Positions 783 through 53,937 of a stretch of DNA of 64,000 nt are shown in pieces; the stretch's first letter is position 1, and every line of letters begins with the position of its first letter. The stretch lies in assembly GCF_001411555.2 (NCBI RefSeq), contig NC_049901.1, positions 29,638,333 through 29,702,332 on the forward strand. The letters are read 5' to 3'. The notes under the pieces are model-generated. The model was given only the letters and a program-made list of their open reading frames with translations. It had not been told where the DNA came from and searched no databases. Source of the DNA: Juglans regia. Its lineage: Eukaryota; Streptophyta; Magnoliopsida; Fagales; Juglandaceae. The translations under genes and the position numbers were made by a program.

Positions 783-784
783 AT

Positions 785-21668: not shown

Positions 21669-21857
21669 TAGTCTTTCTAGCATTAGATCAATAAAAGGAA
21701 AGGGAAAATGGTCTTTCCGAGTTGCATCATTCAGCCTTCGATAGTTTATGCATACTTGCCATCCCGTAACCGTTCTCGTCGGTATGAGTTCGTTGTTGTC
21801 ATCTTGATCAATGTTATCCGTCATTTCTTTGGGACAACTTCCACTAGACTTACCCAT
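21669..21857 (-). pseudogene. Athila reverse transcriptase, N-terminal piece
   Basis: GWQVCINYRRLNDATRKDHF, then PFPFIDLMLERL, is the first conserved block of Ty3/Gypsy reverse transcriptase (the VCIDYRKLN-type motif). After ERL the reading runs into family A LTR sequence, so codons below 21,669 are not RT. The catalytic DD block is absent here and lies at 54,140-54,170. Confidence 0.9.
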
Positions 21858-22018
21858 GCACTATCTGAGATTGGATAAATGATCTCGGCATCTAAAAGCT
21901 TCAATACTTCTTTAAGCACGACTTCTTGCATCGATGGATTCAATCTCCTTTGGGGTTGGATGATCGAGTTAAAATTATCCTCCATTAGAATCTTGTGCAT
22001 GCAAATTGAAGGACTAAT

Positions 22019-22915
22019 TCATTTGATATCCAAGATGGTCCAACCCAAGGCCATCTTATTTTCCCGCAAGACTCTTAGCAACTTTTCTTCTTCTACAACA
22101 CTTAAGGAACTGTTAATAATAATTGAAAAAGTAGAGTCCTGGCCTAAGAAAGCATACCTTAAAGTTGATGGAAGCTGTTTGAGTTCAGGCTTTGGTGGTT
22201 CCTTACTTGGAGATGGGTTTAGCTCTTCCACTTTCGATTTTATTGAAGGAGGAAAGGATGGTGTAGCCTCCAAGTATCTCTCACACTCCCTAACCTCTTC
22301 ATCTTCGAATTCAATAGATGTAGAATGAGTAAGAAGACATACCTCAAGTGAGAGCTTTGGAAATTCAGCTCCATAAGTCTCATCGGTCATGATCACGTCT
22401 AGGTCGCTTATTTGAAAACAAGAAGGTACCTCGGAAGGGAATTCCATATATTTAAATACGTCAAAAGTGACCAGCTCCTCATTGACCCTCAAAATGAGTT
22501 TTCCTTGCTAGACATCAATTAAAGTTCTCCCCGTCGCAAGGAAAGGTTGGCCCAGTATCAAAGGGATCTCCTCGTCCTCTTCCATATTGAGTACAATGAA
22601 GTTGGTTGGGAAGATGAACTTATCAACTTTCACCAGTACGTCCTCAATGAGTCCTCTCGGGTATTTAATAAATCTGCCTGCCAACTGTAGAGAGATAGTG
22701 GACAGCTTTGCTTCTACAAGACCTAGTTTCCTGAAAATAGAGAGAGGCATTAGATTAATACTTGCCCCTAAGCCACATAAAACTTTATCAAAATAAGAAT
22801 TTCCTATAGTGCAAGGGATCGTGAAACTCCCCTGATCTTTCAACTTAGGCTGTAGCTTCTTTTGTAAAATTGTACTGCTCTCCTCGGTCAGCATTATAGT
22901 CTCATGCTCCTCCAA
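22019..22915 (-). pseudogene. Athila aspartic protease and spacer
   Basis: Retropepsin-like protease that would mature Gag-Pol. Motifs are GSFTIPCTIGNSYFDKVLC, then ASINLMPLSIFRKLGL, and the C-terminal IPLILGQPFLATG. The catalytic triplet, normally D-L-G or D-S-G, reads GLG here, so the active aspartate is lost. The TAG at 22,508-22,510 probably replaces CAG. The downstream spacer, in the same frame, includes SSLSVVEEEKLLRVLRENK and leads into reverse transcriptase. Confidence 0.88.
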
Positions 22916-22942
22916 CTTCCGCTTGTTTGATAATTTATCCTT

Positions 22943-24400
22943 TTAAAATTTTGCATATTTAGACATTTGCTCTAAAGTTTCAATGAGAGGAATATTAATA
23001 TGCAGTTGTTTAAGTATACTCAGAAATTTAGAGAATAGATTATCAATCCTATTTTTTCTTAATCTTTGTGCAAAAGGATTTGGTGGATCATAAATTGAAG
23101 GAGAATAAGTTTCACAATTAAACTCTTTGGATTTCTTGGGTTTTGCAATCGCTTTATTCACTTTAGTCTTCTCAGCTTGCTGGTCAGTCGCATCCCACTT
23201 TGCTTCTTTCACCTCGTACTCGGTTTCCTTCTTCTCCTACTCCACATTTCCAACAACTTCTGCACCTCACTCAGTATTTATTGTCTTTGGCTGGTCATAT
23301 GTCTGCCCACTTCTCAATGTGATGGCTTTGACATGTTCTTTCGGATTGGTCACAGTGTTGCTTGGTAAAGTCCCTGTTGTCCTCTCTGTAAGCATGTTTA
23401 GAGCTGATTGATTTGTGCCTCAAGATTGTAGATTGAAGTTGAGTTGTTTTGGATCACCATATCATTCTTTTGCATGTACTACATGAACATATCTTCAAGT
23501 GTCGGCTTCTTCTCTTGCTGTAAAAACTGTTGAGGTGGTCTAACCGGCACTTGGTTATTGCTCCATGAAAAGTTAGAGTGATGTCTCCATCCGGGATTGA
23601 ACGTGTTTGAATAAGGATTGTTTGACGTTGAAAATTGGACACAAATAATGGGCTTGTTCATAACTCGGTTGGGCAAAAATATTTCCCACTTGGCAATCTA
23701 CACTTAAATGATTTCCATCTCAATGATGACAAATAGCATTAGTTTGAATAGCATTAATGTTCATTTTACCCATTTGTTTGGATAGATTTGCCAACTGAGT
23801 TGAAATTGCGGGCATGGAGTTAAGCTTAAGGACACTTGCTGCCTTATTTGGCATTGCTCTCTCTATGGCCCACAGATAGTTGTTAAACACCAACTTTTCT
23901 AGAAATTCATATGCAGCTTCAGAGGTCTTACTCATTAATGTTCCTCCTGTGGCTGCATCAACCATATATTGATTTGTGGGTCCCAAACCATTGTAAAATG
24001 TCTGTACTTGAAGCCAGGCTGGGAGGTTAAGATGTGGACACTTTCACAATACATCCTTGTATCTCTCTCATGCCTCATATAATGATTCACCCTCAAATTG
24101 GGTGAACGTAGTGATATCATTCGTTAACTTCGCTATCTTAGCCGGAGGGAAATATTTTGCTAAATAATTTTTGTGTCAACTGCTCCCACGTTGTGATGAT
24201 GCTGGGTGGCAAAGAGTTCAACCAACCTTTTGCCTTTTCCCTAAGTGAGAAAAGAAAAAGTTTCAATCGAATCGCATCATCTGTCACTCCGTTGTGTTTA
24301 AAAGTATCACAAATTTCTAAGAAATTTGCAATATAGACATTAGGATCATCTTGTGACAGCCCCCCCAAACTGGACAGTTTATTGAATCATTTGAATGATG
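22943..24400 (-). pseudogene. Athila gag, fragmented
   Basis: Pieces in order are DDPNVYIANFLEICDTFK and LFLFSLREKAKGWLNSLP (24,138-24,368), the SEAAYEFLEKLVFNNYLWAIER block (23,720-23,986), NPYSNTFNPGWRHHSNFSW (23,479-23,676), and a C-terminal QRLRKN...LKQLHINIPLIETLEQM segment (22,943-23,212). All are typical of Athila Gag. They lie in several frames separated by stops, so no capsid protein can be made. The region above 24,400 up to the LTR is untranslated leader. Confidence 0.85.
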
Positions 24401-24699
24401 ACCAACTTGATCTCGAAGTTATTGGCTTGTATAGCTAGCTGCCTTATATTAGATGTTGCCCCATTAACAAAGGGCATAACATAGTCTCTTAACGCCTTTT
24501 GCTCCTGGTCGACCATATTAAATTTAGATGCAGTGACATCTTTTTTTTTTTTCGACTTAAGGTTCTTTCAATCTCGGGATTGAAAAGTGTATGCTCTAAT
24601 GATTTAGATCGGGGCAAGTAAAATAAAACTAAAATCTAATTTAAATTAATAAAATAAAATCCAAGTAATAAAAATTTAGCTAGTAAATAACTATTCTCT

Positions 24700-24716
24700 G
24701 GCAATAGTGCCAAAAA
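24700..24716 (-). other. Degenerate Athila primer-binding site
   Basis: Minus-strand TTTTTGGCACTATTGCC, next to the LTR end at 24,719, resembles the usual Athila leader TTTTTGGCGCCGTTGCC with CpG-type losses. Confidence 0.6.
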
Positions 24717-24718
24717 CA

Positions 24719-26374
24719 TGTTCGCATAAAAATATATCTGCAAATGTACAAAATCATAAGAAGTAATAAAATGTTTTAAAGAAAACAGATGTCGAACCCA
24801 CAAGGAATAATTATGCTATTGAGTATTAAAATTGACTTAATTAATCACTATTTGGAAAATTGAAATTTAAAGAATGGATTTTCTAAATTAAACTAAAGAC
24901 AATACTGTTAAAATTAAGATTTTAAAGATAATAAAAATAGATCTAGAGTGTTTGATTTCACCTAATAAATCTCACACAATTAATTCTTCATCGTTATACA
25001 ATTCTAATTATTCCAAGTCGATGATAAAAATCCCATAACTATTTAATATTTTTCCTCGAACAATACCAAAAATATGCCCAACTAATAACTCCATATCTAT
25101 ATGTGAATTTAACTAATTGGAGACTCAGTAAGTTTTTTAAATTTTTCTTGAAAATACACAAATCGCAGTAAAGTATATCTACTTTCACTCCACTAATGGT
25201 GCTGAATCCTAGAGTTTTAATCATAAATCACCTCACGGTCTCATTGTGATTCAATAGATCGAACAATAATTAGATAGAAAATTACAAGCATTAATAACAA
25301 GGAATAAACACACAATTATGGAAATATTGAAATAAAATAAATTAGAATATAAATTGTGTATTCAAAGCTAGACTACATCAAAGCTCTAGAAAATAAAATT
25401 TGTTCATAATGAAATTGAAAACAAAAATAATAAAACTAGTGTTCTTCGTTGGAGTCAGTTGATGAAGCATGCAACCGTCGCCTCTGCTCCCCCAGATATG
25501 CCTCCTTGAAAGAAACTTTAAAAATAAATTCTGGACTATTTTTACTCTAAAACTCAGACTCTAAAATCTCCCCTTATTGATCCCACAAGATGGGATTAAA
25601 TAGATATCAAAATTTAAATCCGGAAACAAGATAATTGCGGCTACAATCTAGCCTAAAAATCTGGAAAATAGTTTCTAAAGATAAAATTTAACATAAAAAA
25701 ATCTATCCCAAGAATAATGGAATTGTCTAAAATAGAAGATTCAGTGATATGCGGCTTGATTTATGGAGTTCAGGAGGATTTGGTGGTCAGTAAATTGATT
25801 GTGAAACTCGTAAGGGTCCCATCAGGTAGATGCCTATGTGCGTTGAATATAACTGGCCTCCTCGCCTACCGAGATGAAAGACTCCCTACCAGAATGAAAG
25901 ACTCCTCTCGCCAACCTACTGAGTGGTAAGGTTGCTAACCTTTGGTAGTTGTTGCCAACAATGTCGTTTAGGTTGGTTGCTTAAGTTGGTCATTTAGACT
26001 GGTCACCCAATCTAACCACCCGGAGCCTTGTGCCAAGTCTTCGTACCCATGAGGTAAAATCTCTTGCTATCGCCTAACTCTTGTCGCCAATTTTGGTTAC
26101 CAATTCTAGTGGCGCCTTCTAGTCGCCATTGAGTCTCCTCGCCTAAATCTCCTCAACTCTCTTCAAATCTCGTCGCCTCTCATCGGTTTGGATTCGTAGT
26201 CTCTTCTTTTATAAAAAAAACTCTCTCCTTTTGCACTAAATCTTCTTATTCCTTCAAATCCAAGAAAATAAAGAAAAATATATAGAAATAAAATAAAATC
26301 AATAGTATTGAAGGAAAAATGACACTTTTCATAATAAAAGAGGAATAAAAATCATATAAAAATAACACTTATCA
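24719..26374 (-). mobile_element. Athila 5' LTR (1,656 bp)
   Basis: On the minus strand it starts TGATAAGTGTTATTTTTAT and ends TTTTTATGCGAACA. It is homologous end to end with the LTR at 55,324-56,995 and the solo LTR at 49,648-51,263. It contains the GAGAGGCGACGAGA and CTCCAACGAAGAA blocks seen in all three copies and no coding sequence. Confidence 0.93.
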
Positions 26375-28718
26375 CTTGTATCTTCATTTTCTATTTTGAT
26401 CTAGATGGACTTAAGTCTAATTGTTGGAGAAAGCTAAGAATGTGAGATTGACTTAGACTATGTTGTTTTGGTGCAATAAGCACCCGAGCACAACAAAAGG
26501 CCCAACACCTAGCTAATTTTCAGTCCTATAAGAATTTAGGGTCTTGGAATGAGTGACAGGTGCCCTTTTGGATAGAAGGCTCTTGAGTTTTCCCAAGCCA
26601 TAATCATTAGGCTCCTAGGGAAAGGGAGTTTTGCCTTTCTAAGAGACACTCACCACTTGTTTCTCAAGCACTGAAGCTGCAAGCTTTTAGAACAAGTCAT
26701 GTGAAAAAGGAAGAAACCCATGGGATTTCGGCTCATCTAGGGCACATGCCAACCCTAGCACCCACAATACCACTTGGCAATCATGTAACTTCATCCTATA
26801 GATTCATTGTACTTGGACCAAAAAGGGAATAAGGTAGGAGAAAACAGAGTTTCGAAAATACTATGGGACACACGCCACCTTCACTGATTTTGCTACATGG
26901 TATTCATGCATAAGCACCTTGGAATTTCTAGAAGATGTAATCATGAGGAGAGGTTTGGTCTTCTAGGGAGCACACCACTTGGCAGCCATGCATGTCTCTT
27001 TCCATAGGTTCATTGTACCTAGACCATAAGGGGAATGCTGGGAGACAGTTAGGGATTCGACTAGAACATAAGGCACCACTTGTCCCTCATGCATGAAGCT
27101 CATGCATGAGGAGTCCCTTAGGTTCCTGAGAATCAATGATGAGGGGAAGAAGATGGGACTTACGGCCATAGCATGTAAGGGATGCCACTTGGTGCCTATG
27201 CATCAGAAACTTTTCGGATTCTACAACAAAGTAATGATAGGAGAGAGAGAGAGAGAGTAAGTGGGAGCTAAGGGGAGAATAAATATGGGGTATTGTTGGC
27301 CGGCATCCATACACTTGCTAGAGGGAGCTCAAAGGACATTTTTTGTTTCAAATTTGTGCTGTAACCTTCTTGTAAGCTTCATGAGAAAGAAGGAATAATT
27401 GTTTCGACCACTAGAAGGCAACCATGCTTAAACCTTATTGAGTATAGTTTGTCTAGGGTTTTCTCTTAAGGAACCCGAGTTCTTGATGACAAAATGGACA
27501 AAGAGAGTGGAGATGTTTGGCCCTTACTAGGGTTTCGTGTAAAGTTCTATTTATTCATTATTGTAAGAAGCCTAATCTAGAGTGCACGCACTTTCAACCA
27601 TTAGGGTTTTGTTGAATGAAACCATACTTATCTTACACACACACTTGTGTTCTTCCAATCGTGTGTATATGAGTTATAAGAGTCACAAAAGGAGTTTATA
27701 GCCGATTAGGGTTAAGAGCATAAACCCTAGTACACACCACACATGTTTGGATTGATGCTTGTTATCCAAAGTCTAATAGTTTGAAAATATATACTTTCAA
27801 CTTGCTTGATCATTAGAAAAGCTTTTGGAAAACTTATTAGTTAATCTCTAACTTACTCTTGGATAATGTATTTATGTTCACATGTAAACTCTGCATTTTG
27901 AGTTGCTTAAATTGGATTATTGAATTGCGACTTGTTACATGCTATGACTTATTCATATCTTATACGGGCATGCTATGTTAAAATGTTGCTTGTCAATGGT
28001 TGGTTCAAATGACATGTTTTGAGTTCTGAGAAATGGTATATGCTTTGTTGAACTTTCACATGTTGTACAAAAGTATATGTGATGCACATGATGCATTCTT
28101 GATATATGGTATAAATACATGAAATTGTTACATGAAAGTTACATGGTCACATGTCACATGTTTTCGGGTTGTGCATTAAAAGAAATAATTTTGTCATACC
28201 AATGCTAGGATGGTAAAATATCCTCGTAAAACTACTCTATCCACTCTAAGTGCATAAATTGGAGTGGTAACCCTAATTTGTGAAGTACAATAAAAAACTT
28301 AAAATGGGGGTTTTTAAAGGATTATAGATCGAAGTATCCACACCTAATGCTAGTGGGTGCAACACATTGTAAAGTACAGTGAAGGCAAATTGCGAACTGT
28401 TGTACCATATGGACTCTGATGTACTCATACCCGGTCAAGAGGGTCGGCAATGTGATGTGGTAACTCGCAGGGAGCCCACAGTTCCTAGGCGTAGCCATGA
28501 GGTGTCCACCCACCTTATTATATGTATTAAGTTTGTTAAGTTTTTACAAGAAACAGAAAGATGATATTTTGTTACATGTTTACTTTGTTACATTGATACA
28601 TGGTTACAAGATCACTGATTTTTCAAAGAAGATTGCATATGGGACAAAAATATGTGTTTGGTCAAAGTACATGTTCATGCTCATGCATTCATACTCATGG
28701 TTTACCTGAAATTGAACG
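26375..28718 (+). mobile_element. LTR G fragment
   Basis: Non-coding sequence with the features of a long Gypsy LTR: a TAATCTCTAACTTAC segment near 27,842 and the conserved module GCTAGGATGGTAAAATATCCTC at 28,203. It is truncated at about 28,718 where B4 begins. Its 5' tip is missing here but is found on the other side of the inverted segment, at 56,996-57,032 (complement TGTGACAAACCGATC). Small frames inside are not genes. Confidence 0.65.
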
Positions 28719-31809: not shown

Positions 31810-32995
31810 GTTTTGGGTATCTCTTGTAGACGCAATCTTCCTTAGAAAAATAGAGTAGCTGGCTGGTTTTCTTATGCTAAAAAATCTTCTTTTAAAGGTA
31901 CTCTTGTTGGTTTAATTCCTTGTATCATCACTTGGTGCCTTTGGAAGAGACGTTGTAAGGCTAGAATGGATGGCAAATATGATTCGGCTGTGATTGTTTG
32001 GAGAAGTGTTCGGGTGTGGATTAAATCTTTGGCAAATAATATTAATTTTGTTAGTCATTTATCCATGCACGACTTGAAGATTTTGGAAGATTTTAATTTA
32101 GAGAGGCCTCACATTTCTATGCGTCCTAGTAAAATTGTTAAATGGTCCAGGCCCCCTTCGGGCTGGGTGAAGCTTAATTGCGACGGGAGTTGTAGAGGTA
32201 ATCGGGGTAATTCGGGAGGGGGCGGCATTATTAGAAATTGGAATGGTCTGGTAAAAGGGGCTTTTTCTGCCCATTATGGGGTGGGAACGAATAGTGGCGC
32301 TGAAATGAAAGCTATTTTGGATGGTATTAGATTGTGTAAACGGCTCCATTTGAGTAATGTGATTATTGAAAGTGATTCACAAATTATTGTTGATTGGCTT
32401 TGTATGGGTAAATGCTCTGTGTGGTATCTTTGGGATTTTTGGGAGGCTTTGCGCAAGGAACTTGAGGGGCTTAATTTTGTTGTGGTTCATCAATTGCGGG
32501 AAGGTAACAGTGCAGCGGATTTTCTTGCTAGAGAAGGTGAAATGGGTTTGAATGTCACGTATAACGGCAATCAAGATTTTCCCAGGTTTTTAAAAGGTAT
32601 TGTGCGGCTGGATTTTCTTGGCATTCTGTACTTGCGTCGTTAGTCTGAGGTCCAGGTTTGTTTTTGTCGTTTCAGGTTATTTTGTTTTTATTTGTTAGGC
32701 TTGTTTAGATGTTTTTATGTTTTGTTATAGGCTTGTTTAGTTTTATTTTCGTATCTTTGGGTTTTTTTTTTTATAGGCCTATTAGTTTCTGTTTTATTTG
32801 TTTTATTTGTCTTGCTGTTTTGGTTCTTAGGTTGGTTTGTATTTGGGATGTTTTTGTTTTCTCTTTTCTGTAAACTCCCTCATGCTTGGCTTGTAACCAC
32901 GGTATTCCTCCGCCATAAGTGAGGGCTTATAAATAAACTTGGGACGAGGCCACTTCCATATGGCTACCGGCTCTTTTTTTTTTTAAAAAAAAAAA
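31810..32995 (+). mobile_element. 5'-truncated LINE
   Basis: Only the ORF2 C-terminus, the 3' UTR and an A tail (32,980-32,995) remain, the usual result of incomplete target-primed reverse transcription. The 3' end matches that of the LINE at 15,371. The left boundary is approximate and no target duplication could be assigned. Confidence 0.88.
31846..32643 (+). pseudogene. LINE ORF2 C-terminus with RNase H domain
   Basis: Open from just after a TAG near 31,843 to the TAG at 32,641. It reads WCLWKRRCKARMDGKYD, then the RNase H block with Asp in LNCDGSCRGN, Glu in GAEMKA, Asp in ESDSQIIVDW and Asp in NSAADF. All four catalytic residues are intact, but the endonuclease and reverse transcriptase are gone. 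Identity to the 16-kb LINE protein is only moderate, so this is a different LINE family. It lacks its own start and promoter. Confidence 0.9.
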
Positions 32996-38872: not shown

Positions 38873-39282
38873 ATTTTGTTACAGGATCTGAAGGAGAATC
38901 GGGAATCGACCAACTGGAAATGGTCGACTAAGCGACGATGCGATGTAGGTGTTAATACAGTAGTTACCTCAGATTACTACTTGTATTTGTAGAGTTCAAT
39001 CTCCATCACTCTTTTGATCACAACCATATGGATTAATATTGTGATCTCAGTTGTTTAGTATGTCATTATGTATGAAGTATGTTTTAAGTATTTGAGATAT
39101 TTCGGTTTGGTGCATAGTATTGCTAAAAAGAAAAATTATCCGCTGCGAATATTGCATAATGCTAGATGCATGTTAGGAATATTGCATCTTATATGTCATG
39201 AACGGGGGCAGGTAACCTTGTGTTGCATGTCTCGACGTTTCAAATGTCCGTCCGATCACAAGCGGAATTTGCGGGCGTCACA

Positions 39283-39656
39283 CAAGGTCCTGCTCGACCT
39301 CCTCATTGTCACTTTCGGGTACATGGCCCTCCACAAGCAGTCTTCCCCGATGAGTAGATGACATCGATGATTCTAAAGTCTCGGGCTCAAGATCGATAGT
39401 TGCGGCGCGCTCTTCAGCTGCGTTGCTAGACTCAGCTCCGTCATGCGACATCCTCACTCTAAAGCTATATCGAGCCATCCAAGTGGTTGGGTGAAGTGCC
39501 AGGTAACGTTCCTCGTGAGACAAATGGTTGATTTCCTAATCAAATATGAAGAAAATAATTCACAACTATAAAGATAGTCCACAATAGATCAGAATCAAAA
39601 CAAAAACGGTATTTGATATCCAAGCAAATGAAGTACAATGACTAACTAATGCAAAA
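39283..39656 (-). pseudogene. Family B element, 3' extra ORF, part 1
   Basis: The minus-strand frame 39,523-39,283 reads SHEERYLALHPTTWMARYSF, then an acidic Ser/Glu-rich stretch (ATIDLEPETLESS, then HVPESDNEEVEQDL). No known domain is recognised. It lies downstream of the chromodomain in the restored element. A similarly placed acidic frame exists in element A (49,124-49,546). The part from 39,524 to 39,656 has stops in all frames. It ends at CAAAA (39,652-39,656), the target duplication of element A. Confidence 0.65.
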
Positions 39657-40530
39657 TGTGACGACCAAGATTTTTGCTAAGCTTTCAATGCATTATATTG
39701 TTAATTTGGGCCAGGAGAGGCAGAATAACCCATTGAGAAATTAGGTTGGAATAGAAGGGATATGAGATCTTGAGTGGAATTCAGCCTTGTAGTGGAATTA
39801 GGATTTTGGAGCCCATTGGAATTAGGGTACAAGCCTACCCTAGGGAATGGATTCCCTCTTACCATGTGTCATACATGCAAGAAGGCTTTTTTGTAAGGTT
39901 ATAGTATGGTGACACTTGTCACTATGGGAGAGGGTTTCTAGAAGGAAGATGAAGTGACATGAAAAGTTGGAACTTGAGGGAAGCCCAAAGGGCATGCACA
40001 ACAACCATAGAGGGACATGATTTGATTTTTGCCAGGTGTCATGCATGCAAATGGAAGGTGAAGAGTGTTGTCTTGGGAAAGGGCACGATCTTGTTGGAAG
40101 AAGGGGCTACACGCCTACTAGGGTTTCTGAAGGAGTTTTGTAAGAGAATCCCTTGAGGTGGACGGCAAGGGCAAGGAGGTTTGTGCACTTTTGCCACCTT
40201 TATGACCAATCACACAATGTCCAAGAAATTGGTGGAAGAAATGGACTTTTTGGCCATCATGCACACCCACACTCCCCATGTGCCACTTGTCACACATGCA
40301 CACTTTTAGGGATTGAGGAAGATCTTAGTTAGGTAAAATACTATTTTGCCATGAGGTTCATTTAACCAAGACACAAGATGAAGGGCAATTAGGGGATGGA
40401 GGTTTCGATTTTGAGAGGGAGGTGCCACTTGTCTAAAAGCTCTCTTGTGGTTCCAATACAATCAAATGATGGAGAAGGAGAAGAGGCTCAAGGGTTAGGA
40501 GCCAAATGGTATTCATGCAAGGAAACTTAG

Positions 40531-41360
40531 TGATGAGAACCAAAGTGGGCCTAGTCTTAAAGACCTTTTGCAAGTTCCAGATGGGCCAATCACAAGATCA
40601 AGGAAGCAATGCAAGGATTGGTGCAATCCATTTGGGATGAAGCAAGCAAGAGCCCAACGCTCAAGATGGGCTTGAAAGAAGGAGAACCAAGTTTTGTTTC
40701 ATTTGATAAGCTATGGAAGAGGGCAACAAAATGACTTAAAGGATTTGAGCACTTGAAGGCCTTCAACTTGTTTAATTCATTTAAATGACTTATTTTATTA
40801 GTTTAGAATAATGGAGTTTATTATGGGAAGGACTTAAAGGGGCCTATGCAAGGGCATGTTGGGAAATTTATTATTTTGTTGAACTAGGGTTTCAAGAAGT
40901 ACTGTAGCGACTAGGGTTTCAAAAGACTGTAGCCGAGTTACTGTAGCGCCGTACTGTAGCCGCAACACTATTAACTCAGGAGTAGTTTTGGAAGATGGGG
41001 CATTATTTTTGCTAGGGTTTTAAATAGATTTTGGTTTAAATACTCTTTGTAGTCTCATTTGAAGAAGTTTATGAAATTTGATGAATTTATTCATTGTGAG
41101 TTGAGTTTATCTCCTCTTGTTCTTAATTGAACTTTTGAACTTATCAAAGGTAAATCACAACCTTAGTGACGTTCCTCCTTTGTAAATTGGGTTCTTGAGA
41201 CGGGTTCTTCAACGGGTCTAGATTTTAATATAATCTAGGTTCTTGAAACGAGTTCTTATCGGGTCTAGATTCTGCATCCATTGACTTGATTTTGGCTTTC
41301 TTGGGGAGTTTTCAAATTGATTGTGGGCTCAAGGGATTCCATTCCTGCGGGTTTATTTCA
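40531..41360 (+). mobile_element. Solo LTR H (830 bp) inside the family A 5' LTR
   Basis: Starts TGATGAGAACC, ends GGGTTTATTTCA, with the perfect target duplication CTTAG at 40,526-40,530 and 41,361-41,365. The family A 3' LTR at 52,100 runs straight through the site with a single CTTAG. It contains four ACTGTAGC motifs at 40,901-40,970, a TTTTAAATAGA box at 41,020 and repeated GGGTTCTTGAGACGGGTTC-like units at 41,188-41,270. No coding sequence. Confidence 0.93.
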
Positions 41361-41684
41361 CTTAGCTTGTACAAGAAGCCTCTTATGTCTATAAAAGGGA
41401 GAGGTTCCTGAAAACCCTATTTTTTTTAGTCAGTTGGAGGATTTTCTCTTGAAGCATCCGACCACCACCTTTCGCTCTACTTTCCATCACTTTCTCACCA
41501 TCCAAACACCACCTATGTTACTCTCTTTTCTTTCAAACATCATTTTTAAGCAATCAAAGTTAAAGGATACTTTCTAAGGTGAAAATCACATAAGATATGA
41601 AGCCAAAAACCACCTTTCCAATTCACCCTACACATGGCCATGAGTGGCAAGTTTTGGTTTTAGTGAGTTCACCATGAACTCATG

Positions 41685-41715
41685 TTCTCTCTCTCTCACA
41701 CACACACACACACAC
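41685..41715. repeat. (CT)n(CA)n microsatellite
   Basis: CTCTCTCTCTCTCACA followed by a CA run. A shorter version is in the 3' LTR at 52,424-52,443, so the array differs in length between the two LTRs. Confidence 0.95.
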
Positions 41716-42239
41716 TCGAGCTAGAGGAAGTTAGGTCTTGTTTTGTGGTGTTTCCCATATGAGCTCACACATATACACACACGGTTTTGGGGTTTATTTT
41801 AAACGAGGGCTTGAGTTGATGCAAGTTTCAGACTTGAGGAATGGAGGACCGAAATCTTGGGAGCTTTTCCTTAGACTAGATGTCATGAGCTTGCACATAC
41901 ACACGGGTTAGGGTTTTAAATAACCAAACCTAATGATTTTTGTATATATATTTTCAGCTTGCGTATTTATCGATTGTTGATTTTTGTAAGTAAACTTCTA
42001 ACTTGTACTTGATATTTTATGTATATGCAATGTGAACTTACTTGTTGTTTGGTTGTATGATTATGCTTGATATAATGATGTTCTTCTATGTGATATAATC
42101 GGATCCTTGTGTGAATGATCAACCTATGATGATTCATTGTGGTTATCTTACATCATGAATATGGAGTGGAAAGCCATACTTAGGGTTTCAGATTTTTGCA
42201 TGATTCTTAACATGTTAATGAAGATTGTCGCATTACCTA

Positions 42240-42417
42240 GGGCTGTTTTGGATTCAGAGATGAGATGAAATGATTTTAGATGAAAGATGAAAGTTGAAAA
42301 AATATTGTTAGAATATCATTTTTTAATATTATTATTGCTTTGAAATTTGAAAAAGTTGAATTGGGATTCGAAAAGTTGAATTGTTTATTATATTTTGTTT
42401 GAAAATTTGGAAAAGGA
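42240..42417 (+). mobile_element. Partial MITE (hAT-like)
   Basis: Begins GGGCTGTTTTGGATTCAGAG, then an AT-rich part with ATGAGATGAAATGATTTTAG and a TTGAAATTTGAAAAAGTTGAA unit. It is absent from the 3' LTR. It resembles a short non-autonomous DNA transposon I associate with Fagales genomes (recalled, not searched). The right terminus and target duplication are missing. Confidence 0.55.
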
Positions 42418-43463
42418 TTAAACTCAAAGAAATGTTTTTTTTCCTAAGTATGCTCACTAATATGTTTCGGCTATACATGGAGGTTCATTTATAAAGTTTT
42501 GTTAAGTACATTAGAAGATTCTAATTTCATTTTTTGGGCCATGACTATAGATGAAGGGTTAGCATGATGTGATTAAAGTTTTAAAGGCATAAAATTAAAT
42601 CTCATGCATGCTAGTCTTTATGTATCTCGGCCATTGCATGATACATGTAAAGTTGTGAATGTTCGCTTTTTGTTTGTTGATTGAATGCCTTAGATTTATG
42701 AAAAATGCGAAATGTACCATGGATATGCATGATTGTTTTTTATATGGTCATGATTAAGTTTCGGCATTGCATGTGTCCCATGAAAGTCTAAAGTTTCATA
42801 GTTCATGTCACATGCATTGGGTTTGTGAAATCCTTCAAAAATAAAAGAAGTCTTTTAAAAGTTTGTCATCACCCCAAAGGCTAGGATGGGAAAATGCCTA
42901 GTGGAACTCCTCTATCCACTCAGTAGTGTCTAAAATGGTGTGGTAACCCCTGGGTCAACAAAGTATAGTCAGTGGATCTCGAATGGTTCCTAAAAGAAAA
43001 GGATACTAGAGCAGGATATCACCCAAAGTTAGTGGGTGCCCTATAGTGAAGTCGAAAAGTGAACTACCGTAATTTGAATGATTAAAAGTAAGACGTAGTC
43101 ACCTTGGTCAAAGTGGGCCAATGATTGATGCAGTAACTAGCGGGGAACACACGGTGCATAAGGGAGCCGTTCGGTCTCCATTTATAAGCTAAAATTGAAA
43201 GAAAATCTTTAAGCTCCAAGTTATGTTATACTATGTTATATGAACAAGAACCCAAGCTTACAAGTATGTTAAATGAACAAGTATGAAATAACGAAAAGAT
43301 GTTTTATAAAAGAAAAGGGTTATGAAAGCCATAATGTACACTTTATTTTCAAAAAGTCAAATGCATAAGTAAAGTTTCATGTCCATGCATTCATTTTGAG
43401 TTTGCTTACATTTGCTTACATATGCTTATGATATCTATTACATGTTATTTTTTTACTTACTGA

Positions 43464-43522
43464 GATTTCTCGAAATCATACTGTTGTAATTTTCACTACC
43501 ATTCCCCTACTTGGAATGGTAG
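43464..43522 (+). other. Paired 3' hairpins of the family A 5' LTR
   Basis: GATTT/AAATC (43,464-43,477) and CTACCATTCC/GGAATGGTAG (43,496-43,522, ten perfect pairs, 7-base loop). Confidence 0.8.
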
Positions 43523-44087
43523 AAGTTGTGACAAGAACCCATGAGGATATTCATGGGAAAATGCAAGAGACCAGCTCCCCAGATTCCTAAGGTGACTCCG
43601 AAGAGACTCGAGGTCTCTCAGGAGCCATCTATTTTGGAAAAGTTGGAAGCTGCTGACCAATTCATCACTGGGGGGTTGCAGTTTGTTTGAGCAACTGAGG
43701 AGGATTATGAATTAGGACAAGGCCAACTAGGATCGGCCCCAGTAAAGGACTTATGTTATGGGACCCTTTTGATGAATGACTTATTTTGATGACACTTGAT
43801 ATGATGGTCCCACATTTTGGTAGTTTCTTTTGGAACAATTAAGTCTTTTGATGACTATTATGAAAATTTCTGTTTTGGGATTTATGTGCTTCGGTACCAT
43901 GATATTTGTCTTGTTTATTTGACCTAAGTTGAATTTTTCGCTGCGATATATTGCATACTATTAGATATCAATAGGTGCATTGCATTTTAACCATAATGTA
44001 CAAGGGGTATGTAGCCTTGTATTACATATCTCGACGCTTCAGTCACCGTTCAATCCCGAGTGGAAGCTAGGGGCGTCACAGAAGCGG

Positions 44088-44100
44088 TGGTACCAAAGCA
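44088..44100 (+). other. Primer-binding site of element A
   Basis: TGGTACCAAAGCA, seven bases after the 5' LTR end, matches the initiator tRNA-Met type TGGTATCAGAGC with two mismatches. Confidence 0.75.
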
Positions 44101-44283
44101 ATTATGTCTCTGGATAAACCACAAGTTTTCCTAGGAATACATGGTACCTAATGCTAGGATTGAAATCCAATAGTTATAGGCTTGAACTTTATAGCTATAG
44201 GTTTGAATCCTTAAGGAGGCACGTTCGAAGTATAAGCATGTAGTTGAACTCAAATTGTGAAGTGAAGAAAGAGTAAATCTCTA

Positions 44284-45330
44284 CCTTTAGGAGAAGCTGA
44301 TAAGCATTGGTTTTGTGCCTTTCAGGAGGAAAGGAACCAATGGTGTGCAGACAACACGATGATGTTTCTTTGAGGTCACGAGATCAAGAGGCTAGGAACC
44401 CTCCATTGGAAGGAGGTCAAGCAATTGCAGAAGCCATACTGCAAATGACTGAGGTAGTGAGATATCAAATGGAGCATGGGCAGAATGTGAGGCAAGAGCC
44501 GCCTAGAGGCGAGAATCGAGGATGCCTATGAAAGATTTCTGGTATATCGGTATCTTAACTTTATGGGTACGAAATGAGCTCTAAGAGCCAATAAGTGGCT
44601 TATCGACTTAGATAGAAAATTTAATATCAGTGGATGAACAGAGAATTAGAAGTTCTAGTATGACGGACACTTACTATAGGGAGAAGCTAGCATATGGTGG
44701 CAAGAATTGGAAGATGTCACCACTCTCACTTGAGAGCATTTTAAGAAGGAATTCGATAGTCATTTCTTTCAAAAATAGCTAAGCAACAAAAGGCATTAGA
44801 GATTGCGAACTTGACTCAAGGTAGTAAGGCAGTAGAGCAATATGTAGCTCAATTTATGGAGTTAGGAAGATTTTCCCCACATTTGATTAGTACGGAGAAA
44901 ATGCAAGCTAGGAAGTTTCAAGACAGATTACAACCAAGAATATGGAACCAAGTTGTTTGCTTGCATATTGAGAATTTCCAAGAGCTGGTGAATGTTGCTT
45001 CGATAGCATAGGCAGAGCAGCGGAGTTCGATTTCTCAAATTCAGAATGATTGTAAGAGAGGGATGCCCTAGTCTACAAGAAACAATATGGGGAAGAAGAA
45101 GATCCCCTATACTTTAGATAAAGGAAAAGGGAAGGTAGTCGGTAATGTGGTGCCTGTTACACCACCAACATGTCCTAGTTGCAGACAAAGACACAGTGGT
45201 GAATATCATTTCGCCACCAGAGCATGTTTTAGATGTTGTCAAACTGGCCATATGATTTGAGATTGTCCACGTAATATGATGGGAGGAGCATCGACGCCAA
45301 GAAGCAAAGGAAAGACCCTTGTGAAGGCTA
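44284..45330 (+). pseudogene. Element A gag, fragmented
   Basis: Visible pieces are GQAIAEAILQMTEVVRYQME near the N-terminus (44,307-44,531), the gag core AVEQYVAQFMELGRFSPHLI with EKMQARKFQDRLQPRIWNQV (44,811-45,011), and a CCHC knuckle CFRCCQTGHMI-DCP (45,228-45,270, with a stop inside). At least six stops or frame changes separate them. Confidence 0.85.
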
Positions 45331-45479
45331 AAGTCTATGCAATCACTCTAGGAGAAGTGGATTTGGAAGCTAAGGAAGCTATGGATGCCAAAGTAATCAC
45401 TGGTAACATTCCAACCCTACTGTAGTTGGTAGCTTGTGCTTGCTAAGAATTCCTAAGTAACCTTAGTTACCCTTGTAGG

Positions 45480-45905
45480 TAAGGTTAAGTTGATGCAACA
45501 GTTAGCTTGTGCTTTGTTTGACCGTGTTCTTTTGTGTCATATGATTGCATGAGAAGATGTAAGCTGAGCGTGGAATCCTTGTCCCATAAAGTTTTAGTAG
45601 CTATTCCAAATGGGAAGGTAGTTGGATGCACTCGTATAGTTAGGAATTGTCCGTCGGAAGTCGTAGGACTGACCTTAACCACAGATTTGATCGTTTTCCA
45701 TTTAATGGAATTCGATCTGATCTTAGGAATGGATTGGCTATCTAGGCACTATGCTAAAATAGATTGTCGAAGAAGGAAGGCGATCTTCGAGTTACCCTTG
45801 AAGGACAAAATTTGTTATATGGGGGAAGTAGTGAAGTCAATTCCGTCAACCTTAACGGTAGGACGAGTGAAGAAGGCTTCAAGGAAGGAGCCGATGCATA
45901 TATAG
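45480..45905 (+). pseudogene. Element A aspartic protease, inactive
   Basis: The start reads ACALFDRVLLCHM where chromoviral proteases have ALFDSGASHS-F, so the catalytic D-S-G is destroyed by a local frameshift. Downstream VGLTLTTDLIVFHLMEFDLI, GMDWLSRHYAKIDCRRRK is typical and leads to the linker before reverse transcriptase. Confidence 0.8.
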
Positions 45906-45929
45906 TGGTTATGACTAGTGCAATAGAGG

Positions 45930-46800
45930 AACCTAAAGGAGTCAAAGGGATTCCTTTGATAGAAGAGTATTCTGAAGTTTTTACCGATGATCTACCTGGA
46001 TTACCCCTAAACTGGGAAATAGAGTTTGTAATTGAATTGGAGCCAACTGTGGCCCAGTATACAATGCACCCTATCGAATGGCCCCAGCCGAGTTGAAGGT
46101 TCAGATCAAAGAACTCTTCAAAATGGAATTTATTCGCCCGAGTTCATCCCCATGGGGTGCACCAGTCCTATTTGTGAAAAAAAGGATTGGACTATGAGGA
46201 TGTGCATTGAATATTGGGATTTGAAAAAAGTAACTATTAAGAATAAGCACCCTCTACCTCGGATCAACGACTTGTTGGATCAATTGCCAGGAGCGTCGAT
46301 ATTTTCTAAGATAGACCTACGATCAAGATATCATCAATTGAAGATAAAGGATCAAGATGTACCTAAAACAACATTTTAGACTCGTTATGGACACTTCGAA
46401 TTTTTAGTAATGCCTTTTGGACTGACAAATGCCCCAACAACATTCATGGATTTGATGAATCAGATATTTAGGCAGTATTTGGACAGCTTTGTAGTGGTGT
46501 TCATTGACGACATTTTGATTTACTCCTGAAGTGATGAAGAATATAGGGAGCACTTGAGGATAGTGTTGAGGACTTTACAAGAACATTAGCTTTACGCTAA
46601 GCTCGACAAGTGTGAGTTCTAGCTCAAAGAGGTGAAATTTTTGGGACATGTCATTTCTAGTGAAGGTGTGGTTGTAGACCTTGCTAAGATAGAAGCAATA
46701 ATGGAATGACCAATGCCCATGAGATACGTAGCTTTTTGGGTTTGGCAGGATATTACTGAAGATTCGTCGAAGGATTTTCTAAACTGTCTGGTCCCTTAAC
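45930..46800 (+). pseudogene. Element A reverse transcriptase
   Basis: Motifs in order are [74 protein letters not shown] and the catalytic [12 protein letters not shown] (46,494-46,529), then KCEF, VKFLGHVIS. The FIDD active site is intact, but stops occur after KTTF, YS, EH, CEF and ME, plus a frameshift near 46,090. Confidence 0.88.
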
Positions 46801-46804
46801 GACA

Positions 46805-47290
46805 TTGACAAAGAAGAATTCCAAGTACGTTTGGAGTGAGGAATGTGAAAGGAGCTTCCAGGAACCCAGAAGGAGGTTAACCACGGCACCTGTGTTAGCA
46901 TTTCCTAATCCTCATAAGCCGTATATGGTTTATAGTGACACCTCTAAGATGGGTTTAGGGTGCGTATTAATGCAAGAAGAGCGAGTCGTCGTTTATGCCT
47001 TGTGACAACTCAAGGATCACGAGCAAAATTAACCTCCTCATGATTTGGAATTTGCCGCTGTAGTCTTTCTGCTGAAGATCTAGAGACATTATATTTATGG
47101 AGAAAAGTGTGAGGTGTACACTGACAATAAAAGTCTCAAGTATCTGTTTAGTTAGAAGAACCTGAACATGAGGTAGAGAAGATGGGTTGAGATGATCAGC
47201 GATTACCAGTGTGAGATTAAGTATCACCCTAGAAAAGCCAATGTGGTAGCAGATTCCCTTAGTCGTAAGACTCAGGCCGACGTGCAATCA
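46805..47290 (+). pseudogene. Element A RNase H
   Basis: Contains PYMVYSDTSKMGLGCVLMQE (Asp of the catalytic site), LEFAAVVF (Glu), VYTDNKSLKYLF (Asp) and [12 protein letters not shown] (Asp), the order expected of a Ty3/Gypsy RNase H. Several in-frame stops (after VYAL, DHEQN, LLKI, LFS) prevent translation. Confidence 0.85.
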
Positions 47291-47415
47291 CTTTTGGCAG
47301 GAATGCAGGAATTGCTGATAAGAAAGCCGCCAAGAGATATCAGGTTAACGGTGGTGTAGGAGATTGTACCATTAACTAATGGGAAATTATTGAAGGACAA
47401 GGTAAGGATGATAAA

Positions 47416-48255
47416 TTGGAAATACTTCGACAAAAAATTCTGAAATCCGAAGGACCACAACACTTCTCGATTGGTAAAGATAGGATGTTGTATTATAAGG
47501 AGGGAAAAATGATCCCTACTGTTCCTGAATTAAAGGAAAAGATTCTGAAGGAAGCTTATTACACACCATATATTGCTCATCCTGGTAGCACCAAGATATA
47601 CCGAGATTTGAAGAGACAATTTTGGTTGGATGGAATAAAAAGAGAAGTGGCAGAGTTTGTTGCTAAATGTTCAATTTGTCAGCTGGTAAAGGCTAAGCAT
47701 AATAGGCTAGCTGGAGAGTTGCAACCATTACCGATCCTAGAATGGAAGTGGGAAGATGTGTCTATGGATTTCATGATAGGTTTTCCAAGGACATTGTCAG
47801 GGAATAATTTGATTTGGGTCATAATTGACCGATTGACCAAAAGTGCACATTTTCTACCGATTGCTAATACAGACTCGTTGGACAAGCTTTCTAGAGTTTA
47901 TGTTAAGGAGATAGTTAGGCTTCATGGAGTGCCTAAGTCTATAGTATCTGACAGGGTCATGCGGTTCACTTCACATTTCTGGCAAAGTTTACAAAAGATA
48001 TTGGGCACGAATCTGAGGTTTAGTAGTGCCTATCACTTGCAAACAGACGGACAAACAGAGCGTACTATCCAGACATTGCGAGATATGTTACATGCTTGTG
48101 TAATGGAATTAAGTGGTGATTGGGAAAGCCATTTTCTATTGATAGAATTTGCTTACAATAATAGCTTTCAGGCTACAATACAAATGGCACCTTACGAAGC
48201 GTTGTATGAAAGGAAGTCTAGATCCCCTCTGTATTGGGATGAAGTCGTTGAATGA
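47416..48255 (+). pseudogene. Element A integrase, 279-codon open core
   Basis: Integrase that would insert the cDNA. The HHCC zinc module is H in PYIAHPGS and C-x2-C in AKCSICQ. The catalytic D,D,E residues are in VSMDFMIGF, IVSDRVMRF and DGQTERTIQT, at DD35E-type spacing. Only this stretch of gag-pol is uninterrupted over 800 bases. The first H of the HHCC module is not evident. A stop at 48,253-48,255 separates it from the C-terminal part. Confidence 0.92.
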
Positions 48256-48297
48256 AGGTTGTTAGGACCGAAATACTTTTAGGATGTATGAAAACAG

Positions 48298-48800
48298 GTG
48301 GAACTAATTTGGGAAAGGATCAAAGCAGCCCAAAGTCATCAAAAGAGTTATGCCAATAAACGATGGAGGAATTTAGAATTTAATGTTGGAGATTGGGTGT
48401 ATGTCAAGGTTTTACCCATGAAGGGAGTCATATGGTTCGGGAAGAAAGGAAAATTGAGTCCTAGGTATGTAGGACCATTCGAGGTTATGGAAAGATTCGG
48501 TGCAGTGGCATATCGATTGGATCTACTAGCCGAGATGCAAGGAGTGCACACTATCTTTCATGTATCGTCATTAAAGAAGAGCTTTGGGGAAAGCTAGCCA
48601 GTAGTAATGGAAGCTGGTAGTATACAACTTCAGCCAAATCTATCCTATGAAGAATGGCCTATGCAAATTGTGGATAACAATGACCAACAGCTAAGGAATC
48701 AAAAACTATCTTTAGTAAAATTACTTTGGAACAACCCAGCTTTTCAAGAAGATATGTGGGAAAGATAAGATTTGATGAGGACTAAATATCCTCATTTGTT
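48298..48800 (+). pseudogene. Element A integrase C-terminus and chromodomain
   Basis: The open frame at 48,298-48,597 has the GPY/F-type block (KLSPRYVGPFEVMERFGAVA, then VFHVSSLK-like FHVSSLKK). After a TAG, NLSYEEWPMQIVDN, LRNQKLSLVKLLWNN, EDMWER and DLMRTKYPHLF form a chromodomain, as in Tekay/Del elements. One more stop interrupts before DLMRTKYP. Confidence 0.85.
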
Positions 48801-49005
48801 TGTAACTTAGAACTTGTGTATTCATGAATCTCATTTATGAATGATTGTTTGATTGTACCTTGATTTCTTGTGTGTGGATGTCTCTGTGTTATCTATGAAT
48901 TATAGTGATGATATGTGCACCTACCATACTCATGAACAGGGCATGACTCGTAATTAGGAATACCCCTCGCATGTCTGTATCCTCGGTAGTGCAGATTAGA
49001 GCGAT

Positions 49006-49546
49006 ATGCGAATGCGGTCGCAGGAACCAACTAGTAAGGATGGATCGAATGATGAGTGCTCACTAGTAGCAGATGCAATGGTTGGAGCATCATCACACTT
49101 ATGTGTTGGATGCACATTTATAGAGCAATATTTTTCTAAGGAAAGCCTTACCACAAGAAGAGCGTCAATCCCCACACGATCCTTTGGTATGGAGAGATGC
49201 AAAAAGGTTACATCTACTTGGACTTAACCCTGTGGTAGAGTTCAGTCGTGCTGTAGAAGCTCTCACTTTAAGATATGAGCCTTTTGAAACTTCAGATACG
49301 TCTGCTAACCGTATACGTTGTCGTGAAGAACGACAGCCCATTGAAGATACTGAGCTCGAGATTGAGCATAAGTTAAATGAGATGCAAGTAAACAAGTATT
49401 ATGATTATGACTTGGACACGATATTCTATTTATCACAAGATTCAGTGATAGAAGAAGAAGGCAAAGTACAGCTTGCATCATCATCTGAGGATTCTACCGT
49501 AGCCAGTGCAAGAGGTACCAATGAGGATTGGTTTTCTTTCTATTAA
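49006..49546 (+). pseudogene. Element A extra 3' ORF, unknown function
   Basis: Between the chromodomain and the polypurine tract a frame opens at MRMRSQEPTSKDG (49,006) and a second frame (49,124-49,546) continues with QEERQSPHDPLVWRDAKRLH, then YYDYDLDTIFYLSQDSVIEE and a Ser/Glu-rich end, TNEDWFSFY. A frameshift near 49,150 would join them. No domain is recognised. The family B element has a comparable acidic ORF at the same place (EERY...W motif, FYYLP, Ser/Asp-rich end). Function is unknown. Confidence 0.5.
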
Positions 49547-49598
49547 TTGATTTTTTTTGTGACTACGGTATCGATTTCGAGGATGAAATCTTTTTCTA

Positions 49599-49608
49599 AG
49601 GGGGAGGA
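49599..49608 (+). other. Polypurine tract of element A
   Basis: AGGGGGAGGA immediately before the 3' LTR start TGTGAC; it would prime plus-strand synthesis. Confidence 0.85.
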
Positions 49609-52600
49609 TGTGACAACCAAGATTTTTGCTAAGCTTTCTATGCATTTTGTTCGCATAAAAACATATATGCAAGTGCACAAAATCATAACAAGTAATAAAA
49701 TATTAAAATTACTATTTGGAAAATTGAAAATTGAAGAATGGATTATCAAAATAAAATTGAAGACAAAAGCATTAAAATTACAATTTTTAAAAATAATAAG
49801 AATAGATCTAGAGCGTTTGATGTCACGTACCAAATCCCACATAATTTATTTTTCCTTGTCAAAGAATTCCAATTATCCCAAGTTGATGATAAAAATCCCT
49901 TAACTATTCAATATTTTCTCTCGAATAATACCAGAAATATCTTCAACTAATAACTCCATTTCTCTATATGAATTTAACTAATTGGAGACTCATTAAGTTC
50001 TTTGAATTTTTCTTGAAAATCACAATAATCGTGGTAAAGTATCTCTACTTTCACTCAACTAATGGTGCTTAATCCTAGAGTTTTAATCACAACTCACCTC
50101 TCAGTCTCATTGTGATTAATAGATCGAACAATAGTTAGCTTGAAAATTACAACCATTAAGAACAAGGAATAAATACCCAATCATAGAAATATTGAAAATA
50201 AAATAACTTAAAATATAAATTATTGTGTTCACTGCTAGGCTACATCAAAAATCTAGGAAATAAAATTAGTTCATAATGAAATTAAAAAGAAGAACAATAA
50301 ACTGGTGTTCTTCGTTGGAGTCACTTGATAAAGCATGCGACTCTCGCCTCTGCTCCCCCAGATCTGCCTCCTTGAAAGAAATGTAAAATAATAAACTTTG
50401 GAATATTTTTACTTTAATACTCAAACTCTAAAAAATCAAAGGCTCAGAACCCTAAAAAATATAACTCTCTATTCATCCCACAAGACGAGATTAAATAGAT
50501 GTCAAAATTCAAATCTAGAAACAATATAAATCCGGCTACAATCTAGCCTAAAGATCTAGAAAATAGTTTCTAAAGATAAAAGTTAACATAAAAGAAATTT
50601 CCAAGAATAACAGAATTATCTAAATGGAAGATTCATTGATATGCGGCTTGATTTATGGAGTTCGGGAGGATTTGGTGGTCAGCAGATTGATTGCGGTAGA
50701 GACTCCCGACCGGGATGCCATGTGCACTGAATATAATTGGTCTCCTCGCCTACCGAGAGGAAAGACTCCCAATCGGGATGATAGAACCCTCTCGCCAATT
50801 ACCGAGTGGTAAAACTGCATGCATTTGCTAGTTGTCGCCCACAATTTCGTTTAGGTTGGTCATTTAGACTAGTCGCCCAATCTAATCACCCAGAGCCTTG
50901 CACCAAGTCTTCTCGTCCAGATGGTAAAATATCTCGCTTATCGCCTAACTCTTGTCACCAATTCTAGTCGTCTTCTGGTCGTGCCTGGGTCTTCTTGCCT
51001 ACCAAGAGGAAAGACTATTCACTTATTGAGGTGTAAGTCTTCTTGCATTTTCATATCTCGTCGCCTCTCCTTCGATGTGGCTCCTTAGTCTCTTATTTTG
51101 TACCAAAATGCTCTCCTTTTGTACAAAGTCTTATCATTCCTTCAAATCCAAGAAAATTAAGAAAAATATATAGAAATAAAATAAAATCAATAGAACTAAA
51201 GGAGAACTGACATTTTTCATAAATAAAAAAGTGATCAAAATCGTATAAAAATAACACTTATCATATTTTATTTTATATTGTTAATTTGGGCCAAGAGAGG
51301 AGGAATAACCCATCGAGAAATTATGTTGGAATAGAAGACATATGAGATATTGAGGAAGGCCCAAGCCTATGAGGAATTTGGCCTTGTAGTGGAATTAGGG
51401 TTTTGGAGTCCATTGGAATTAGGGTACACGCCTACCCTAGGGAATGGATTCCCACTTACCATTTGTCACGCATGCAAGAAGGTTTTCTTATGAGGTGATA
51501 GTATGGTGACACTTGTCACTATAGGAAGATGAATTGACATGAAAAGTTGTTACTTAAGGGAAGTCCAAAAGGCATGCACGACAACCACATAGGTGATTTT
51601 TGCCATGTGTCAGCATTCAAATGGAAGGTGTAGAGTGTTGTCTTGGGAAAGGGCAAGATCTTGTTGGAAGAGGGGCTACACGCCTACTATGGTTTCTAGA
51701 AGGATTTTTGTAAGAAACTACCTTGAGGTGGACAGCTAGGGCAAGGAGGTTTGTGCACTTTTGCCACCTTTGTGACCAATCACACAATGTCCAAGACATT
51801 GGTGGAAGAAATGGATTTTCGGCCATCATGCACATACACACACACTCCTCATGTGCCACTTGGCACACATGCACACTTGTAGGAGATTGAAGAAGATCTA
51901 AGTTAGGCAAAAGACCATTTTTCCATAAGGTTCATTGAACCAAGACACAAGATGAAGGGCAATTAGGGGATGGAGGTTTCAATTTTGAGAGGGAGGTGCC
52001 ACTAGTCCAAAGGCTCTCTTGTGTTCCCAACACAATCAAATGTTGGAGAAGGAGAAGAGGCTCAAGGGTTAGGTGCCAAATGGCATCCCTGCAAGGAAAC
52101 TTAGCTTGTACAAGAAGCCTCTTATGTCTATAAAAGGGACAGGATGCCGAAAACCCTATGTTTATAGTCACTTGGAGGATTTTCTCTTGAAGCTTTCAGC
52201 CTCCACCATTTTCTCTACTTTCTATCACTTTCTCACCATCCAAACACCACCCACATTACTCTTTTTTCTTTCAAACACCATTGTTTAGGGTAAGCAAAGT
52301 TAGAGGATACTTTCCAAGGAGGAAATCAAATAAGGTATGAAGCCAAAAACCACACTTCTATTTCACCCCCACACACGGCCATGAGAGGCAAGTTTCAGTT
52401 TTAGCAAGTTTACCATGAACTCATGCTCTCTCTCACACACACACTCGAGCTAGAGGAAGTTAGCTCTTGTTTAGTGGAGTTATCCATATGAGCTCACACA
52501 TATACACACACGGTTTTAGGGTTCATTTTAAACTAGGGCTTGAGTTTATGCAAGTTTTAGATTCGAGGAATGGAGGTCCAAAATATTGGGAGCTTTTCCT

Positions 52601-53937
52601 TAAACTTAGCTTACACATACACACACGGGTTAGGATTTTAAATAACCAAACCTAATGATTTTTGTATATATATTTTCAGCTTGCTTATTAATCGATTGTG
52701 GATTTTTGTAAGTAAACTTCTAACTTGTACTTGATATTTTATGTATATGCAATGTGAACTTACTTGTTGTTTCGTTGTATGATTATGCTTGATATGATGA
52801 TGTTCTTCGATGAGATATAATCGAATCCTTGTGTGAATGATCAACCAATGATTGAAATGGTCCATTGTGGTTATCTTATATCATGAATATGGAGTGGAAG
52901 GCCATATTTAGGGTTTCAAATTAAACTCAAGGAAATGCTTGTTTTTCCTAAGCATGCTCACTCATATGTTTCGGCTATACATGGAGGTTCATTTATAAAG
53001 TTTTGTTAAGCACATGAGAGGATTCTAATTTCATGAAAGTTGATGTAATGTATATTCAAGAATAATAAGTTTCGGCCATGACCATAGAAGAAGGGTTAGC
53101 ATGATGTGATTAAAGTTTTAAAGCCATAAAATTAATTCTCGTGCGTGCTAGTGTTTATCTGTCTCAGCCATTGCATGATACATGTGAAGTTGTGAATGTT
53201 CACTTTTTGTTTATTGATCGAATGCCTTAGATTTATTGAAAAAAAAACATGGTAACATGTTCTAATATTTTCAAGCCGTAACACTCGAAATGTACATGGA
53301 TATGCATGATTGTTTGTTATATGATCATGATTATGTTTCAGCATTGCATGTGTCTCTTGAAAGTTCAAAGTTTCATAGTACATGTCACATGCATTGGGCT
53401 TGTGAAATCTTTCAAAAAGAAAAGAAGTCTTTTAAAAGTTTTGTCTTGACCCCAAAGGTCAGGAAGGGGAAGTGCCCTATTGGAACTCATCTATCCATTC
53501 AGGAATGTCTAAAATAAAGTGGTAACCCCTAGGTCGACAAAGTATAGTTGGCGGACCTTAAATGGTTCCTAAAAGAAAATGATACCAGAGCGGGGTTGCA
53601 CCTAAAGCTAGTGAGTGCCCTACGGTGAAGGCGAAAAGTGAACTGTTGTAATATGAATGATTAAAAGTAAGACGTAGCCACCTTGGTCAAAGTGGGCTAA
53701 TGCTTGATGCGGTAACTAGCAGGGAACACACGGTGCATATGAGCATTTAGGTATCCATTTATAAGTTAAAAGTCAAAGAAAGTCTTTAAGCTCCAAGTTA
53801 TGTTATACTATCTTATATGAACAAGAACCCAAGCTCACAAGTATGTTAAATGAACAAGTATGAAATAAAGAAAATATGTTTTATGAAAGAAAAAGGTTAT
53901 GAAAGGCAGGATGTACACGGTATTTTCAAAAAGTCAA
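49609..53937 (+). mobile_element. Family A 3' LTR, proximal part, split by an Athila solo LTR
   Basis: Starts TGTGACAACCAAG. Bases 49,609-49,647 and 51,269-53,937 align with 39,657-43,366 of the 5' LTR. It lacks solo LTR H and the MITE. It ends at the right inversion breakpoint. The module copy at 53,455-53,550 keeps GTCGAC/GTTGGC as a wobble-paired stem. Confidence 0.92.
49648..51263 (-). mobile_element. Solo Athila-type LTR (1,616 bp)
   Basis: Minus-strand TGATAAGTGTTATTTTT to TTTTTATGCGAACA, homologous to the Athila LTRs at 24,719 and 55,324. Flanks CATTT (49,643-49,647) and TATTT (51,264-51,268) match at 4 of 5 bases, and the family A LTR resumes directly after. No internal sequence. Confidence 0.9.

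Follow-up and report, generated by a model that had tools for sequence, protein, structure and literature searches.

The window, by which we mean the whole 64,000-nucleotide stretch that was analysed, holds the remains of two unrelated LTR retrotransposons, both dead and both split at the same two coordinates (Table 1). In the one designated element A, the 3' LTR can be followed along the plus strand as far as 53,937, its continuation beginning at 21,668 on the minus strand. The other carries gag, protease and reverse transcriptase (RT) of the Ty3/gypsy type with plant relatives, and may belong to the lineage known as Athila; it is called the Athila-like element here. Its protease match (E 3e-4) lies below Pfam's cut-off. 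The decayed RT, again of the Ty3/gypsy type, stops at 21,669 on the minus strand and resumes at 53,938 on the plus strand. The junctions are thus reciprocal: the halves of both elements pair across the segment 21,669-53,937, the arrangement that an inversion by two breaks leaves behind, and when the segment is flipped both elements recover their ends and their target duplications.

Table 1. Coordinates of the split elements, of the sequences inserted in them and of neighbouring features (window positions)
Feature	Coordinates	Strand
Segment read as inverted (32,269 bp)	21669..53937	.
Element A, target duplication CAAAA beside 5' LTR	39652..39656	+
Element A, 5' LTR, uncut; reference for the A junction	39657..44080	+
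Element A, internal region: decayed gag, protease, RT, RNase H and integrase pieces, Ty3/gypsy type	44081..49608	+
Element A, 3' LTR, start	49609..49647	+
Solo LTR (Athila-like family) lying in A's 3' LTR; flanks AAATA/AAATG	49648..51263	-
Element A, 3' LTR, proximal part, ending at right junction	51273..53937	+
Element A, 3' LTR, distal part, ending at left junction	21265..21668	-
LINE inserted in distal part of A's 3' LTR	15371..21264	-
Element A, 3' LTR, end	15065..15370	-
Element A, target duplication CAAAA (TTTTG on +) beside 3' LTR end	15060..15064	-
Athila-like element, target duplication ACAAG	26375..26379	-
Athila-like element, 5' LTR	24719..26374	-
Athila-like element, gag, protease and RT start, ending at left junction	21669..24718	-
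Athila-like element, rest of RT and degenerate end, starting at right junction	53938..55323	+
Athila-like element, 3' LTR	55324..56995	+
Athila-like element, target duplication ATAAG	56996..57000	+
LTR G	57,026-60,981	

The junction in element A can be read against the element's own 5' LTR. To the left of 53,937/53,938 the sequence aligns with this LTR up to 43,360, the last 17 bases being identical; to the left of 21,668/21,669 the reverse complement begins at 43,361, with 10 identical bases followed by a short gap. Aligning the 43,360 region with both junctions had been proposed as a check in the first-pass annotation, and when this is done the two pieces of the 3' LTR abut exactly, at 43,360|43,361, with 0 bases lost or gained at the break. 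The same annotation had the restored LTR reading exactly as in 43,360-43,375. The agreement is exact as far as 43,370 and is interrupted beyond by the short gap. Divergence from the 5' LTR amounts to 263/2604 sites (10.1%) in the proximal part and 74/704 (10.5%) in the distal part (Fisher p 0.73), and does not differ significantly across the six pieces of the 3' LTR (chi-square p = 0.51); these counts omit gap columns and the 5' LTR stretches 40,531-41,359 and 42,195-42,416, which have no counterpart in the 3' LTR. Equal divergence of the proximal and distal parts is what one single LTR would give.

The long open frames of the LINE that lies in the distal part of this LTR carry domains for endonuclease, RT, zf-RVT and DUF4283. 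It has a short A tail, and no clear target duplication was seen at its flanks. Elsewhere in the window, an open frame of 265 codons at 31846-32640 (+) contains an RNase H-like (RVT_3) domain (E 2e-20) and is perhaps the end of another LINE.

For the junction in the RT, the reference is provided by related proteins. The left piece, which extends to 21,669 (-), gave no Pfam match at E 0.1; phmmer aligned it with Ty3 RT as far as residue 143 of 4ol8_A, a weak match when taken alone (E 6e-4). The right piece matches Pfam RVT_1 from position 79 of 205 (E 1.4e-19). Read from 53,939 (+), it places its residue 12 on residue 156 of 4ol8_A (E 8e-19), so that its first residue would fall at about 145 by extrapolation, the first residues being frame-shifted through decay. 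Spacing between the two halves was measured in the 120 relatives listed out of 7,945 that passed; 52 of these could be scored on both sides, and the other 68 lacked one side or fell under the score cut. In 51 of the 52 scored relatives a single residue separates the halves, the remaining one showing a spacing of -4. Where the scored relatives have one codon, the RT junction keeps two bases, and the RT site is accordingly one base short. This agrees with the earlier claim that flipping the segment makes the RT continuous with one base missing. A mutation after the inversion could also account for the missing base. Among the relatives listed, plant sequences with both RT halves in one frame exist, for example in Prunus. 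The 5' LTR of element A and the RT proteins of other genomes are independent references, and they lead to the same two breakpoints, to the base.

Two further observations concern gag sequences. A match to Rfam snoR71 (RF00097, a plant C/D snoRNA) occupies 24024-24130 (+), with 50.8 bits against a cut-off of 40, and lies antisense to the Athila-like gag. When reverse-complemented, the snoR71 consensus itself reads as an open frame that matches the Pfam retrotransposon gag domain (E 3e-6; 27.7 bits, the cut-off being 24.1). It may be that the snoR71 family consists, in whole or in part, of antisense retrotransposon gag. As the match looks like antisense gag, it is no guide to the origin of the DNA, which the named RT relatives indicate to be very probably a plant genome. 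Near the left end of the window, an open frame of 242 codons at 150-875 (-) also carries a retrotransposon gag domain (E 4e-15).

The sequences flanking the outer ends of the elements provide a separate line of evidence. In the flipped order, element A is bordered by CAAAA and CAAAA (5/5 bases matching), as expected from the initial proposal that CAAAA and TTTTG form its target duplication. The pairing of ACAAG with ATAAG, put forward for the Athila-like element, is likewise restored by the flip, with agreement at only 4 of the 5 bases. Random 5-mers of this window match at 5/5 positions with a frequency of 0.0017 and at 4/5 or better with a frequency of 0.021. The LTR pair that the flip reunites in the Athila-like element shows 86.2% identity by BLAST and 87.6% over the ungapped columns of a global alignment.

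One feature of the window appeared capable of contradicting the flipped order. Two LTRs of a 4.3-kb family, at 7,888-12,212 and 34,914-39,282 (B LTRs), share 95.1% identity when the 4,274 ungapped columns are compared, and 92.1% in a gapped BLAST alignment. They now stand in direct orientation and would be inverted relative to each other after the flip; were they the pair of one element, the flip would be wrong. Each is bordered by its own perfect 5-bp target duplication, GGCAA in one case and CAAGG in the other. These separate duplications identify the B LTRs as two solo LTRs, and we rejected their assignment to a single element.

The first-pass annotation erred in placing the start of LTR G at 57,032: its TG start is at 57,026, 6 bases away. 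The flanks of LTR G, CGGTT and GCCTT, do not match each other, and self-BLAST of the window revealed no second copy of the host sequence at the point where LTR G would meet 26,375. When up to 8 mismatches are allowed, neither of the 30-base words spanning the junctions (J1 and J2) recurs in the window; when 9 are allowed, a single further site appears for each, at 4,219 on the minus strand for J1 and at 43,346 for J2, the latter being its half-match in the 5' LTR.

Our interpretation, which we hold to be very probably correct (we put the probability at roughly 0.92), is that a real inversion by two breaks took place once both elements had been inserted, and that the breaks were repaired by end joining. 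The original proposal of a 32.3-kb inversion with base-level breakpoints is borne out by the A 5' LTR, the RT proteins and the target duplications; that there was a single event, how it was repaired and that the assembly is correct are the parts of this interpretation that we infer. In the ancestral order, element A would have lain on the minus strand and the Athila-like element on the plus strand, with about 13.3 kb between them. The segment would have been cut loose by a double-strand break in the 3' LTR of A and another in the Athila-like RT, and would then have been joined back in reverse, classical non-homologous end joining being the most likely route. No base would have been lost at the A site, and the RT site would have come out one base short. 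The net change observed at the ends, 0 bases at the former and 1 base at the latter, does not exceed the few bases by which a simple inversion of this kind may alter its ends.

Rearrangement through inverted repeats, for instance inverted LTRs, would also produce a real inversion. The window does contain inverted LTR copies at present (24,719-26,374 and 55,324-56,995), but these are the LTR pair of the split element and pointed the same way until the segment was flipped. Recombination would place the breaks inside the repeats, whereas they are found in non-homologous sequence. A BLAST comparison (word size 7) of the 1,500-bp arms flanking the breaks, four in all, yielded 34 matches with E up to 1, including 7 with E up to 0.1. 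None of these four-arm matches is an inverted repeat joining both breaks, in line with the earlier statement that the junction sites share no inverted homology. The best match, a 30-bp inverted one with 80% identity (E 0.007), is 11 bp from one break and about 710 bp from the other, and the sole long inverted pair near both breaks consists of the split element's LTRs, 3,051 and 1,387 bp off. We consider recombination highly improbable; the preference for end joining expressed at the outset is supported, if not proved, by the positions of the breaks. The same positions bear on the possibility that a contig segment was assembled back to front. The region is dense in repeats, and misplaced assembly segments usually end in inverted repeats; here, however, the breaks fall outside any shared inverted repeat that could mislead an assembler, and losses of 0 and 1 base would hardly be expected from two independent misjoins. 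An assembly artefact seems to us very unlikely, if somewhat less so than recombination.

It could also be imagined that the halves come from different copies of the same families, independently truncated and reciprocal in appearance only. Both families have other copies in genomes of this kind, and a solo LTR of the Athila-like family is present within the window itself. However, this would require two families to have been truncated at points that coincide to 0 and 1 base, and their target duplications to agree by accident (frequencies 0.0017 and 0.021). The two parts of A's 3' LTR are also equally diverged. To this explanation we assign next to no probability. A different matter is the pathway of joining, which concerns a variant of the end-joined inversion and not a rival to it. 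The original sites share 1 base on their left sides and 0 on their right sides, and the junctions contain no filler. Loss of 0 and 1 base without filler, together with so little microhomology, fits the end joining of two breaks. The single base shared by the left sides, and a report of microhomology at many repaired breaks in a maize centromere (PMC4806543), could be taken to favor the microhomology-mediated, alternative form of end joining; yet a single shared base is expected by chance, and the lack of filler and the minimal loss speak against it. We regard this variant as rather unlikely, and one event cannot separate the classical from the alternative route.

An end-joined inversion that cut both elements would be younger than either insertion. 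The Kimura two-parameter (K2P) distance is 0.110 between the A LTR pieces (3,308 columns) and 0.138 between the Athila-like LTRs, values that are biased down by the use of pieces bounded by BLAST matches. At a rate of 1.3e-8 per site per year, these distances correspond to insertion ages of about 4.2 million years for A and about 5.3 million years for the Athila-like element, which would set only a rough maximum for the age of the inversion.

Taken by itself, the inversion cut only dead elements and leaves known principles unchanged. The kind of rearrangement is ordinary; the scars are unusually clear, making this one more inversion with transposable elements at its breakpoints, with very legible ends. 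It is tempting to speculate that reciprocal pairs of split elements are common fossils in large plant genomes, although we would sooner bet against this than for it. If it were true, one assembly would be enough to count small inversions and their ancestral order, with no need of an outgroup, and it would become possible to measure, at base level, the repair signature that natural breaks leave in old, repeat-rich DNA. In the present case the two dead elements serve as markers of the state before and after, a clean and self-polarising record in which a single sequence suffices to recover the ancestral order, the breakpoints and the base loss. One could envision the present case as a template for a genome-wide count, which could yield the rates and repair signatures of small inversions. 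Among the titles and abstract openings listed, none describes an inversion read from split elements within one genome; such reports may exist elsewhere.

These properties invite comparison with inversions and repair events described in other plants. In the pan-genome inversion index of Asian rice, as reported, 888 of 1,769 inversions have similarity to transposable elements at both breakpoints (PMC10030860). Transposable element sequence at the breakpoints is thus a shared trait; the rice inversions are recognised by comparing genomes, whereas here a single sequence reveals both the event and the order that preceded it. The maize p locus, according to its report (PMC2686159), offers another natural end-joining event that was reconstructed from sequence; that event is a deletion fusion with 50 bp of filler, and the present one is an inversion. 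For maize centromere 10, the published account (PMC4806543) attributes inversions, as well as retrotransposons that are broken or chimeric, to double-strand break repair, a likeness to the situation described here. In contrast, it infers its inversions, often hemicentric, from synteny with sorghum, and many of the events appear to be microhomology-mediated, a route that we hold less likely here. A parallel at the level of the junctions comes from inversions made with CRISPR in Arabidopsis, in which 10 of 14 junctions are reported to show no loss (PMC7474074). There too, two breaks were end-joined, and one line combines one precise junction with one carrying a 1-bp deletion, the same 0/1-bp pattern as in our window. 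The Arabidopsis inversion was induced and spans 1.17 Mb; the present one would be natural and spans 32 kb.
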